The notes under the pieces were generated by a model that was not told the DNA's origin, did no database searches, and saw only the letters and a list, made by a program, of their open reading frames with translations. A stretch of 64,000 nt of DNA from Candidatus Paraluminiphilus aquimaris (GTDB taxonomy: Bacteria; Pseudomonadota; Gammaproteobacteria; Pseudomonadales; Halieaceae): positions 1,178,001 through 1,242,000 of the forward strand of contig NZ_CP036501.1 of the NCBI RefSeq assembly GCF_026230195.1, written 5' to 3'. Below, piece by piece: positions 31,563 to 61,513 of this stretch. Numbering within the stretch: position 1 is the first letter of the stretch; every line of letters starts with the position of its first letter. A program made the position numbers and the translations under genes.

Positions 31563-31589
31563 TTAGCACTCTCACCTCTTGAGTGCTAA
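31563..31589. promoter_or_regulatory. CIRCE operator (HrcA binding site) upstream of groES
   Basis: TTAGCACTC, nine bases, then GAGTGCTAA: an exact match to the CIRCE consensus, the target of the HrcA repressor. The symmetry extends two bases further on each side. It lies 6 bases upstream of the sigma-32 -35 element. hrcA is not in this window. Confidence 0.93.
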
Positions 31590-31680: not shown

Positions 31681-33650
<1,970 letters not shown>

Positions 33651-54143: not shown

Positions 54144-55115
54144 ATGTCGACGATTGATCCCAACAGCAACATCTTGACTGCCCAGGTGCCTATCCAGCAG
54201 CACGGCATGCGATTGGACCAAGCTGCTGTCGAATTGTTCCCGGACTATTCTCGAAATCGTCTCGCCACCTGGATAAAGGAGGGTCGATTAACGCTGGACG
54301 GAAAGCAGGTTAAGCCGAGGGAGAAGGCTCTCGCAGGCGCTTTGCTTCGACTCGAGGTGGATGACGAACCCGCTGTCGATTGGCAGCCGCAGGAGATGCC
54401 ACTCGACGTGTTGTATGAGGACGAGCATATCCTCGTCATTAATAAACCGATGGGTGTGGTGGTACATCCGGCCGCCGGTCATGCCGACGGCACGCTGGTG
54501 AATGCGCTGCTTGCTTATGCACCCGAACTCGACGCTCTGCCACGCGGCGGTATTGTCCATCGCCTAGATAAAGAAACCTCGGGCATCATGTTTGTTGCGC
54601 GATCGCCGCTGGCGCACAAATCTTTGGTGGCTCAGTTATCCGAGAGGTCAGTATCACGAACGTATTGCGCGGTTTGTACGGGTGCGCTCACCGGCGGAGG
54701 TAAAATCGATGCCCCGATCGATCGACACCCGAGTGCTCGAACTAAAATGGCCGTGGTGGCCGATGGTAAGCCGGCTGTAACGCATTACCGCATCGCACAT
54801 CGCTTCAAGCATTACACGCAGCTGCAGGTGAATTTGGAAACGGGACGAACTCACCAGATTCGCGTGCACATGGCGCATCGAAAATGGCCGCTGATAGGCG
54901 ATCCGGTATACGGCGGTCGGCAGCGGGTTCCGGCCGGAGCATCCGAGCTACTGATTACGACATTGCGTAATTTCCCAAGACAGGCGCTCCACGCGCAGGC
55001 GTTGGAGTTTGAGCATCCGGCGACGGGCGATTGGATGGAGTTCGAGACCGATCTCCCGGACGATCTGATGAATCTCCTTGAGGTATTGGACAGCGAGGAT
55101 CGCTTTGGCAGCTGA
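54144..55115 (+). CDS. rluD: 23S rRNA pseudouridine synthase RluD
   Basis: RluD makes pseudouridines 1911, 1915 and 1917 in helix 69 of 23S rRNA. An S4 RNA-binding domain is at about 15-75. The catalytic aspartate is in GGIVHRLDKETSGIMFVA near residue 142. TGRTHQIRVHMAH and PLIGDPVYGGRQR are strongly conserved. The ATG at 54144 gives 323 residues; a TTG at 54132 would add four. pgeF overlaps its end by 11 bases. Confidence 0.94.
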   Translation: MSTIDPNSNILTAQVPIQQHGMRLDQAAVELFPDYSRNRLATWIKEGRLTLDGKQVKPREKALAGALLRLEVDDEPAVDWQPQEMPLDVLYEDEHILVINKPMGVVVHPAAGHADGTLVNALLAYAPELDALPRGGIVHRLDKETSGIMFVARSPLAHKSLVAQLSERSVSRTYCAVCTGALTGGGKIDAPIDRHPSARTKMAVVADGKPAVTHYRIAHRFKHYTQLQVNLETGRTHQIRVHMAHRKWPLIGDPVYGGRQRVPAGASELLITTLRNFPRQALHAQALEFEHPATGDWMEFETDLPDDLMNLLEVLDSEDRFGS

Positions 55116-55860
55116 CCAAAAGGTATCGACATGGCTTGAGCCCGATCTTGGCGTGCCTGGTGTGCGCGTGGTAAGTACCCGTCGCCAAGGAGGGGTAAGT
55201 ACCGGCCGCTATGCCGGACTTAATTTGGGCGATCATGTTGGTGACGACATAGAATGTGTCGAGAGTAATAGGGCTCTGCTTGATGCCTATCTGCCTCCTG
55301 AGCGCGCCGTAACCTGGCTAGCGCAGGTCCACGGCACTCGAGTTCTCTATGCACCGACCGATTATGTTCAAGGTGTACAGGCCGACGCCATCTGGACTGA
55401 TACGGAAACCTTTGCCTGCACCATCATGACAGCTGACTGCTTGCCAATCGTGCTTGCTGACCGCAAAGGGCGCTGTATTGCGGCGATACACGGAGGCTGG
55501 CGTGGTCTAGCGAATCATATTCTTCGCCAAACAGTCGAAGCGTTGCCAGTGCCTGCGAGTGAATTGATTGCCTGGCTAGGACCTGCCATTGGACCAACTG
55601 CGTTTGAGGTCGGCGGTGATGTATTGGCAGCATTTTATCTTGCTGAGACCGACGCCGCGGTCAGCCGCATTTCAGGGGTCGATGATAAATACCTTTTAGA
55701 TCTCAACATGATAGCGAGGCGTCAGCTTTTATCGCTGGGACTCGATGCTCAGCACGTCACCGGTGGAGACATCTGTACATTTTCGGATTCGAGTGATTTC
55801 TATTCGTATCGCCGCGATGGCGTCACAGGTCGGATGGCAACCGTTATTTATTTTGACTAG
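55105..55860 (+). CDS. pgeF: PgeF/YfiH-type multicopper-fold purine nucleoside enzyme
   Basis: A 251-residue laccase-domain (DUF152) protein. The metal-site motifs LAQVHGTRV, MTADCLPIVLADR and AAIHGGWRGLAN are all present. Members remove misincorporated L-Ser from muropeptide precursors in E. coli and cleave purine nucleosides in some bacteria. I choose TTG 55105, which has AGGA 5 bases upstream, overlaps rluD, and leads directly into the conserved domain. The rluD-pgeF-clpB order is the same as in E. coli. Confidence 0.88.
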   Translation: MAADQKVSTWLEPDLGVPGVRVVSTRRQGGVSTGRYAGLNLGDHVGDDIECVESNRALLDAYLPPERAVTWLAQVHGTRVLYAPTDYVQGVQADAIWTDTETFACTIMTADCLPIVLADRKGRCIAAIHGGWRGLANHILRQTVEALPVPASELIAWLGPAIGPTAFEVGGDVLAAFYLAETDAAVSRISGVDDKYLLDLNMIARRQLLSLGLDAQHVTGGDICTFSDSSDFYSYRRDGVTGRMATVIYFD

Positions 55861-55889
55861 TGCGCTCGCTTCTCGGCAAACCGCAAGGT

Positions 55890-55918
55890 CTTGAAAAATA
55901 ACCTTACAAATCCCATGT
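55890..55918 (+). promoter_or_regulatory. Sigma-32 promoter of clpB
   Basis: CTTGAAA (55890-55896), a 14-base spacer, and TCCCATGT (55911-55918) match the RpoH elements with one mismatch in the -10. Expected transcript start is near 55925. Confidence 0.85.
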
Positions 55919-55940
55919 CTATTGCTAAGAAGGAACAAAG

Positions 55941-55961
55941 GCACCGAAGCGGTGCTTTTTT
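55941..55961 (+). terminator. Terminator-like hairpin in the clpB leader
   Basis: GCACCG-AAGC-GGTGC stem (the arms GCACCG and CGGTGC pair around AAG) followed by six T residues. It lies after the pgeF stop but also downstream of the sigma-32 promoter and 32 bases before the clpB ATG. It may end pgeF transcripts, attenuate clpB, or both. Confidence 0.75.
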
Positions 55962-55992
55962 GAGCTCAATAAGAGCTTGTTAGGAGACAGAC

Positions 55993-58614
55993 ATGCGAAT
56001 GGATAAACTGACGAATCCGCTGCAGCAGGCGCTCGGTGACGCGCAGTCACTGGCCGTCGGCCGCGATCATTCGATGATCGAGCCGGCGCACCTATTAAGT
56101 GCATTGATTAACCAGTCAGGCAGCGCAATATTGCCGTTGCTGCAAAAAGCCGGTGCAAATATTTCAGTGCTGCACGCAGGCGTAGACAAAGCGCTGTCAA
56201 AGGTGGCAAAGCTTGCCGATAGCACCGGTGATGTTCAGGGCTCACAGGCTTTGGGACGGTTACTTAATCGAGCGGATAAGCTGTCACAGGAGCGCGGAGA
56301 TGCCTACATTTCCAGTGATGTCGTCTTACTGGCAATGGCCGAGAAAAACTCTGCGCTCTCTGCCCTAATCAGGGATGCTGGTCTGACCGAGGCCTCGCTT
56401 AAAAAAGCGATCGATGACGTTCGCGGGGGTGAGGCCGTCCAATCAGCCGATGCCGAGGAGCAGCGTCAAGCTCTGGAGAAATACACGGTTGATCTAACAG
56501 CGCGCGCCGAAGCCGGAGAGCTCGACCCCGTTATTGGGCGCGATGACGAGATTCGTCGAACGATTCAAGTACTTCAGCGACGAACAAAAAATAATCCGGT
56601 TTTAATCGGTGAGCCTGGCGTTGGGAAGACAGCGATTATCGAGGGACTGGCGCAGCGCGTAGTAAATGGTGAGGTGCCCGAAGGGCTCAAAGGTAAGCGG
56701 ATCTTGGCCTTGGATCTCGGGTCGCTTCTCGCCGGTGCCAAATTCCGCGGTGATTTTGAGGAGCGCTTGAAAGCGGTGCTCAATGAGCTTAGTAAGGAAG
56801 ACGGACGTGTGATTCTGTTCGTCGATGAGCTCCACACCATGGTGGGGGCGGGTAAGTCTGAAGGTTCTATGGATGCGGGGAACATGCTCAAGCCTGCCCT
56901 TGCTCGGGGCGAATTGCACTGCGTGGGCGCGACGACGCTTGATGAGTATCGGCAATACGTTGAAAAGGACGCCGCGCTTGAGCGCCGGTTCCAGCGCGTA
57001 CTGGTAGATGAGCCCAACGAGGAAGATACGATTGCGATTCTTCGCGGCTTGAAGGAGCGCTACGAAGTGCACCACAGCGTCGCCATTACTGACAGCGCGA
57101 TTATTGCAGCGGCGCGCTTGAGCCAGCGTTACATCACCGATCGGCAGCTCCCAGATAAAGCGATTGACCTGATTGACGAGGCGGCGAGTCGAATAAGAAT
57201 GGAAATCGACTCCAAGCCCGAGTCAATGGACAAGTTAGAACGACGTCTTATTCAGCTCAAAATTGAGCGTGAGGCGGTAAAAAAAGACACTACAGAGGCA
57301 GCGACTAAACAAGTTGAGCTGCTGGATGAGCAGATAGACCTTGTACAACGCGAATTTGCCGACCTCGAAGAAGTATGGACGGCGGAGAAGGCCGTGGTCC
57401 AAGGGTCCGCTCAGATCAAGAGCGATATTGAGCAGGCGAAACAAGAGCTCGAAGCGGCGCACCGTAACGGCGACTTGGCACGTATGTCAGAGATTCAATA
57501 CGGTGTGATTCCTGAGCTTGAGAAGCGATTAGAGGCCGCCGAGGGCGCTGATATGCCAGAGCCTACCCTGTTGAAGTCGCGGGTAACCGAAGATGAGGTG
57601 GCCGGTGTCGTCTCGCGTTGGACGGGCATTCCCGTATCGAAAATGCTGGAGGGGGACCGCAGTCGTCTGCTTCGTATGGAGGCATCGCTCAAGGAGAGAG
57701 TGGTGGGTCAGGATGAGGCAGTAACGGTTGTTGCAAACGCGGTAAGGCGCTCGCGAGCCGGGCTCTCTGATCCCAAGCGCCCCAACGGTTCTTTTTTGTT
57801 CTTAGGGCCGACAGGGGTTGGAAAAACCGAGCTTTGCAAGGCACTTGCGGAGTTCTTGTTTGATTCTGAGCAATCCATGGTGCGTATCGATATGTCGGAG
57901 TTCATGGAAAAACACTCAGTCGCTCGTTTGATTGGCGCGCCTCCGGGGTACGTCGGTTATGAAGAGGGAGGGTACCTTACCGAGGCCGTGCGCCGTCGAC
58001 CCTACTCGGTGCTGCTGCTGGACGAAATTGAAAAGGCGCATCCTGATGTGTTCAATATTTTATTGCAGGTATTAGACGATGGGCGTCTCACAGATGGTCA
58101 GGGCCGCACGGTGGATTTTCGCAACACGGTCATTGTCATGACCTCAAATTTAGGCTCCGACATTATTCAAGATATGGCGGACGATGATTACGACGAAATG
58201 AAGCGTGAGGTCATGGGTGCGGTAGCAGAGAATTTCCGTCCCGAGTTCATTAACCGTATTGACGAGTCTGTGGTCTTCCATCCGTTGGGCGCAGACAACA
58301 TACGCGCAATTGCCAAGATACAACTTGCAGGGCTTGCTGAGCGACTTGAGGAACGCGAGCTGACACTCGAAATTTCGGATGCGGTATTCGAGCAGCTGTC
58401 TCGCGTTGGGTTCGATCCGGTGTTTGGTGCGCGGCCCTTGAAGCGCGCTATTCAACAATTGGTTGAAAATCCATTGGCTCAGGCGATTCTCGAAGGGCAA
58501 TTCAACCCTGGTGACAGAGTTTACGCGGCGCTCGATGGGTCATCGCTTAAGTTCGCTCGCGAGGCAGTACGCGATCGAGCACCCGAAGCGCCGGCAACAA
58601 AGAGTTTGCATTAA
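55993..58614 (+). CDS. clpB: ClpB disaggregase
   Basis: An 873-residue Hsp100 ATPase that resolubilises aggregated protein with DnaK. The N domain (1-150) is followed by AAA-1 with Walker [10 protein letters not shown] near 205. A coiled-coil middle domain lies at about 400-520 (the [12 protein letters not shown] stretch), followed by AAA-2 with GPTGVGKTE near 605. The middle domain distinguishes it from ClpA. The ATG at 55993 follows TTAGGAGACAGAC; an in-frame ATG at 55999 is also possible. A sigma-32 promoter precedes it and a terminator follows. Confidence 0.98.
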
Positions 58615-58635: not shown

Positions 58636-58659
58636 AGGCCTGTTGTGACAGGCCTTTTT
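58636..58659 (+). terminator. Intrinsic terminator of clpB
   Basis: AGGCCTGT-TGTG-ACAGGCCT perfect 8-bp stem with a T run, 21 bases after the clpB stop. Confidence 0.93.
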
Positions 58660-61114: not shown

Positions 61115-61513
61115 GCTGTTTGTCGATCAAAAAGTGGTCTTAGAATCGTCAATAATCACGATTTTGGCTCATTGCTTGACTTCAATAGGGGCGATAAAGA
61201 CACTACGGAAAGTCACGCGAACGGCAACGGTTATTGGTGAGTACCCTTACCCTCTGACCCACTCTTATGACGGGATAGTTATTTGGGCTGTTTGCGGGTT
61301 CCGTCAGTGTTGCGCAGGTCTATGCGCCTCACGCTCGGGCTCGACACTGCGCTACCTCGCAGGACGGCCGAACACGGGTTTCGTGATCGATGTTCTGGAT
61401 GGTGTCCGGAGCGATCCGGCCAGTGGTTCGTGCGACAGACCTCGGTGCGCACGCAAGAAGCAAACTCATTCAGCGTTCTCACCGTAAGGCATTAACACGG
61501 AGGGAGCGACACA

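Follow-up and report, generated by a model that had tools for sequence, protein, structure and literature searches.

A terminator-like hairpin behind the sigma-32 promoter of clpB is probably a lineage-specific form of a heat-stable leader stem-loop

The clpB leader of Candidatus Paraluminiphilus aquimaris contains, directly downstream of its sigma-32 promoter, two stable stems, the first of which ends in a run of six U and resembles an intrinsic terminator. The terminator form is not conserved in relatives, the stems are predicted to withstand heat, and the Shine-Dalgarno sequence (SD) is mostly open at all temperatures. We studied the site in a window of 64,000 nucleotides (the whole stretch of DNA that was analysed) and consider it fairly probable that the hairpin is an ordinary heat-stable stem-loop of the clpB leader, in a form specific to this lineage, with at most partial and temperature-independent termination. 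The function of the leader and the degree of read-through past the hairpin are what we infer from these patterns. The results speak against the tempting story of a clpB attenuator that melts on heating and put a plain and testable one in its place: the clpB mRNAs of the family carry stable stems tending to leave the ribosome site open, so that heat control can rest on sigma-32 alone. They also advise caution, as a leader stem paired through A and U can, in a single genome, mimic a terminator that the relatives lack.

The clpB locus and its leader

The 64-kb window belongs to a 2.72-Mb genome (G000:C1) and has the gene order rluD - pgeF - clpB, the same as in E. coli K-12 (rluD - yfiH - clpB). 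The products of clpB and pgeF match ClpB (TIGR03346, 1391.5 bits) and PgeF (TIGR00726, 185.5 bits), both above the cut-off, with the RluD gene upstream, and the best named match to the pgeF of the window comes from an uncultured Halieaceae bacterium (L002). The features of the locus are as follows.

55078-55860, + strand: pgeF, given as the longest frame; the true start may lie further in
55890-55896, + strand: sigma-32 -35 box CTTGAAA, from the sequence and the presence of the boxes throughout the family leaders
55911-55918, + strand: sigma-32 -10 box TCCCATGT, 14 bases from the -35 box
55924-55927, + strand: predicted transcription start (unmapped), from the distance to the -10 box
55937-55959, + strand: leader hairpin of 10 pairs with loop AAG (core 55941-55955), from the sequence, the fold and a matching stem in loci L073-L080
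55956-55961, + strand: U6 run (six T in the DNA), from the terminator score
55962-55978, + strand: second leader hairpin, GAGCUC-AAUAA-GAGCUU, 3 nt upstream of the SD, from the fold
55982-55987, + strand: SD, AGGAGA, from the sequence
55993-58614, + strand: clpB coding sequence, with its ATG at 55993

The clpB leader is about 68 bases long and consists of the two hairpins followed by the SD and the start codon. The first hairpin, with arms AAAGGCACCG (55937-55946) and CGGTGCTTTT (55950-55959), and its U run occupy about +17 to +37 of the predicted sigma-32 transcript, and four of the six U are paired in the minimum-energy fold, where they form the lower 3' arm of the stem. A sequence-only reading of this DNA had described a terminator-like hairpin lying between a sigma-32 promoter and clpB, shortly after the predicted start. 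This description stands, with the promoter (55890-55918), the stem, the U run and the ATG following one another and the hairpin beginning at about base 17 of the predicted transcript; the second hairpin, and the matching stem that sister species have without a free U tract, had gone unmentioned there.

The sigma-32 promoter is shared across the family

We searched 140 genomes of the family, 57 of them from the genus, for ClpB and handled 119 loci (L002 and L070-L187), from which L098 was dropped, its contig beginning 29 bases before clpB. For the remaining 118 leaders, 116 of them distinct, the transcription start is predicted and placed 7 bases downstream of the -10 box. One and the same 5,390-base contig evidently underlies L002 and L072, so the 118 rows correspond to 117 records, and the 113 pgeF-clpB junctions described below to 112 if both were counted. 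Two more ClpB matches (in G063 and G105) lie outside the leader set. As controls we took the best 30 loci of the 108 and 138 genomes with a match to groES and dnaK, respectively, together with the window for groES; 30 of 31 groES and 30 of 30 dnaK loci could be placed, and filtering for the promoter left 29 and 27 distinct leaders.

The consensus of a sigma-32 promoter upstream of a heat-shock gene is CTTGAAA-N(13-14)-CCCCATNT, to which the clpB promoter of the window is near-perfect (7/7 and 6/7 matches, spacer 14). A -35/-10 pair with a spacer of 13 or 14 is found in all 118 clpB leaders of the family, and the same test is passed by 17 of 2,360 shuffled stretches. The sequence-only reading had proposed looking for both promoter and hairpin in relatives; this comparison bears out the first (118/118 leaders) and not the terminator form of the second (1/118). 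A block of 39 bases that includes bases past the -10 box (55890-55928) is identical in G003, where the DNA match ends on either side of it, and 97% identical in G047. In 7 of the 113 junctions the end of pgeF reaches into the promoter box.

As an observation apart from the hairpin, an inverted repeat between spacer and -10 box is frequent in the clpB promoters (L070-L187): repeats of at least four pairs occur in 43% of 104 distinct promoters, compared with 23% when the spacers are shuffled, and the clpB promoter of E. coli has one too (TGAGG...CCTCA). The window and its 13 nearest relatives have three pairs or fewer.

The hairpin has a terminator form beyond chance

To score terminators we used d, the d'Aubenton Carafa score. 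The leader site reaches d=12.6, a value attained by none of 40 shuffled leaders, and has a GC stem (six core pairs, three-base loop) directly followed by the U6 run, the features in which it resembles an intrinsic terminator. Its 28-nt hairpin piece folds better than 200 of 200 shuffles (z -3.89) and a 41-nt piece better than 197 of 200 (z -2.76), and over both strands of the window we find nine sites with d>=0, compared with 1, 3, 1, 0 and 0 in five shuffled copies. The hairpin and its terminator shape are beyond chance. A mechanical consensus scan reports the leader hairpin on the minus strand only, with 2 sites in the hairpin region and 2.4 in shuffles; in our view it misses the plus-strand hairpin because the stem extends into the U run there. 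The 19-base hairpin pattern has a single exact copy in the genome, which is the site itself, and four places with three mismatches, ruling out a repeated element.

The positive score means that the leader site may terminate well, which counts against our favoured explanation. A working, constitutive intrinsic terminator could have been gained in this lineage, stopping read-through from rluD-pgeF and, whatever the temperature, also ending some of the sigma-32 transcripts. Besides the score and the six U, this alternative draws on the other d>=0 sites of the window, which mostly follow a gene on the same strand, and on the stop codon of pgeF, which lies just 29 bases before the -35 box and so leaves little room for a terminator further up. 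Against it, the site is the weakest of the six with d>=0 on the plus strand, and five intergenic sites after genes in the window have d of 32.5-56.3; such a terminator would cut the cell's own heat-shock clpB mRNA; and it is absent from nearly all pgeF-clpB junctions of the family, as described next. We regard it as rather unlikely, though deserving of real weight. The stem of the window perhaps has part of the function of an intrinsic terminator as well as its look; it departs from the usual kind in lying within a heat-shock leader, in its partly paired U run and in its lack of conservation among relatives.

The terminator form is confined to one genome

Among the 118 clpB leaders, d is positive in one, that of the window, and the next best value is -26.9; of the 113 pgeF-clpB junctions, read from the end of pgeF onwards, 1 has a site with d>=0, again that of the window. 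No site with d>0 is found in the 29 groES or 27 dnaK leaders of the same family, and 49 clpB loci from more distant gammaproteobacteria have no terminator site in their 180 upstream bases. A pgeF terminator is outside the shared design of the junction and is not a conserved arrangement. The suggestion that a pgeF terminator merely overlaps the clpB leader is accordingly left as possible for this one genome and fails as a conserved feature, 112 of the 113 junctions having no such site. Given these 112 junctions, read-through from pgeF into clpB is probably normal in the family.

The gene pgeF was undetected in the stretch fetched for 5 of the 118 loci, of which two (L146, L172) are short and three (L156, L166, L170) comprise about 700 bases, so that gene order may differ in these three. 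A second genome of the same species (G001) has one weak partial ClpB match, which we take to be ClpA, and no match to the leader DNA. In G110 the ClpB N-terminus is split across two overlapping matches (G110:C1:3189923-3190521), possibly by a frameshift or an assembly error. Inspection by eye of Colwellia and Thalassotalea loci (e.g., L021, L028, L042, L056) shows a common block like CCAGTAATATGGCA just before the clpB SD.

Sister species have the same stem without a free U tract

Eight sister species (L073-L080) have a 49-base leader whose stem, AAAACACC/GGUGUUUU, lies two bases before the SD. The stem of the window, AAGGCACC/GGUGCUUU, matches it arm by arm and pair for pair, with 97.2% of cells in the alignment paired, one double change from A-U to G-C, and G-U variants. 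The covariation level is equalled by 117 of 500 shuffles and is no better than chance because so little varies. The stem is intact in most of the eight, one pair being broken in L079 and L080. The U run of these species is the paired lower half of the 3' arm, leaving no free U tract; that of the window is two U longer and is followed by the second hairpin.

By ClpB identity, the closest loci to the window here are L071 (92%) and L072 (93%), with L073-L080 at 84-86%. L071 and L072 have a hairpin at the same place as the second hairpin of the window, and their first hairpin is longer, different and without a U run, so the stem match depends on the more distant L073-L080. Taken across relatives, the comparison indicates that the leader sequence evolves fast while the presence of stems is steady. 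A separate feature of L071 (1411-1500) and L072 (2101-2190) is that the leader opens with CUAAC, which pairs with a GUUAG that overlaps the SD and closes a three-way fold; the window could form only four pairs of this type, and they are absent from its minimum-energy fold.

These comparisons are consistent with our preferred reading, in which the hairpin would be part of the clpB 5' leader, a compact and stable stem between the sigma-32 start and the ribosome site, with the second hairpin following it before the SD. The lower half of the stem, which pairs through A and U, would in this genome have become AAAG/UUUU with a run of six U, and to this change it would owe its terminator look. Any termination at 55961 would be partial and would not act as a temperature switch.

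The leader stems are predicted to be heat-stable

Bacterial RNA thermometers include the ROSE, FourU and rpoH types. The clpB leader of the window resembles them in that a heat-shock gene is preceded by a leader stem; it differs in its unmasked SD and in a stem predicted to be stable beyond 60 °C. The core stem is predicted to be closed with probability 0.98 at 37 °C, 0.97 at 42 °C and 0.91 at 60 °C. Folding of the leader plus 16 bases of clpB at ten temperatures between 4 and 70 °C gives minimum-energy structures in which both stems persist, each losing one pair at most, and in which the terminator arms have no rival pairing.

The SD is likewise predicted to be mostly free at every temperature (pairing of bases 55981-55986, 0.28 at 25 °C and 0.23 at 42 °C). 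The start codon loses its pairing only gradually (0.59 at 25 °C, 0.39 at 42 °C), and the pairs concerned are weak ones outside both stems. The pattern of an RNA thermometer, with SD pairing over 0.8 at 25 °C and under 0.4 at 45 °C, is seen in none of the 116 distinct leaders. Heat melting of the terminator stem and masking of the SD were therefore both rejected.

By these predictions, melting would be unable to release the terminator in the heat-shock range. The sequence-only reading had offered a heat-released attenuator, with a stem that terminates at normal temperature and melts on heating as a thermosensor on top of sigma-32 control. The layout of promoter, stem, U run and gene is what this proposal has in its favour, and the predicted folds do not support it: at 42 °C the core stem remains 97% closed, no competing structure appears among the minimum-energy folds, the SD is unmasked, and the U-tract form is peculiar to this leader, with d>0 in none of the other 117 rows. 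We consider such an attenuator extremely unlikely.

Structured leaders are common in heat-shock genes of the family

Stable stems between the transcription start and the SD are likewise a feature of the sigma-32 leaders of clpB, dnaK and groES across the family, from which the window differs by its positive d, absent in the 115 other distinct clpB leaders and in the groES and dnaK leaders. From start to SD, the 116 distinct clpB leaders fold with a mean z of -1.38 relative to shuffles (31 below -2, 11 above 0), and the 27 dnaK and 29 groES leaders with mean z of -2.04 and -1.11, respectively. The signal is modest leader by leader, with 40 of the 116 clpB leaders having at most 5% of shuffles that fold as well. 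The last stem ends no more than five bases from the SD in 84% of the clpB set (68% in shuffles) and 81% of the dnaK set (72% in shuffles); groES shows the opposite, with 14% compared with 63%.

For 13 members of the genus, picked by eye, the stem near the SD has double changes at three of six pairs, reached by 1 of 500 shuffles, and a covariation score reached by none of 500; the outermost pair of the stem is unpaired in 6 of the 13. Pairing of the SD stands at 0.288 over the clpB leaders and 0.371 when the upstream part is shuffled, and is lower in 88 of the 116. The Wilcoxon p of 2.7e-10 for this difference ignores the relatedness of the leaders and overstates the evidence, because leaders of related species are not independent. 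In the window itself the opening of the SD is unexceptional, 11 of 30 shuffles giving a value at or below its own.

We read these patterns as stems that may stop upstream RNA from pairing with the SD, and protection of the mRNA is another possible role. In the leader stem-loop explanation that we favour, stems of this kind would be found in the majority of the family's clpB, dnaK and groES leaders in our sample, heat control would come from sigma-32, and the stems would tend to leave the SD free and perhaps protect the mRNA.

Known RNAs and a possible short transcript

At the site all Rfam families stay below their thresholds, so a known RNA family was rejected as the identity of the hairpin; in a lax search the best hit is SraG (E 1.4), far below its gathering score. 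The annotation of E. coli K-12 has a small RNA, RyfD, that overlaps both the clpB leader and the first codons of the gene. This locus matches the RyfD family (RF02768) at 125.3 bits; the window has no match to it at the gathering score, nor any at E up to 10 within 55800-56100.

A short RNA of about 35-37 nt that is induced by heat, ends in the U run and has its own role would fit a stem and U tail placed right after a sigma-32 promoter, and the RyfD annotation over the clpB leader offers a parallel, as a short RNA at the same place. RyfD is however a different RNA, since its 5' end lies upstream of the sigma-32 boxes and its 3' end within the clpB coding sequence, and with no Rfam family at the site and a U-run form that is not conserved we think a functional short RNA quite improbable. 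Very improbable, in our estimate, is a combined arrangement in which a promoter-proximal clpB terminator gained in this lineage is overcome on heating without melting of the stem, leaving the 35-37-nt by-product as a heat-induced small RNA; a changed polymerase speed, an antitermination factor or coupling to translation would be candidate means of overcoming it.

Premature 3' ends are described as widespread in E. coli 5' leaders, some of them in the leader with the rpoH thermometer (PMC7815308). The name clpB is absent from the main text of this 3'-end mapping paper and from that of PMC8297930, as well as from the main texts of PMC4606813 and PMC9426594, which mention RyfD; the text of PMC6561320 leaves RyfD and clpB unlinked. 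Among the open-licence papers found in our searches, titles and opening lines of abstracts show no report of clpB leader attenuation. For Pseudomonas putida, a supplementary alignment of sigma-32 5' leaders is named in PMC4263515.

Other regulatory elements in the window

Beginning 23 bases past the clpB stop, a terminator-like hairpin with U5 (58637-58654, + strand, d=15.1) is perhaps the terminator of clpB. Further down, an ilvB-OMG cis-regulatory RNA (RF02919, 208.8 bits) lies at 61212-61425 on the plus strand. A perfect CIRCE element (31563-31589, + strand), the operator of HrcA, stands directly before a sigma-32 promoter of groES (groES match 31684-31965); the genome has an HrcA gene (G000:C1:1154233-1155234), and groES possibly combines two heat-shock controls on one promoter.
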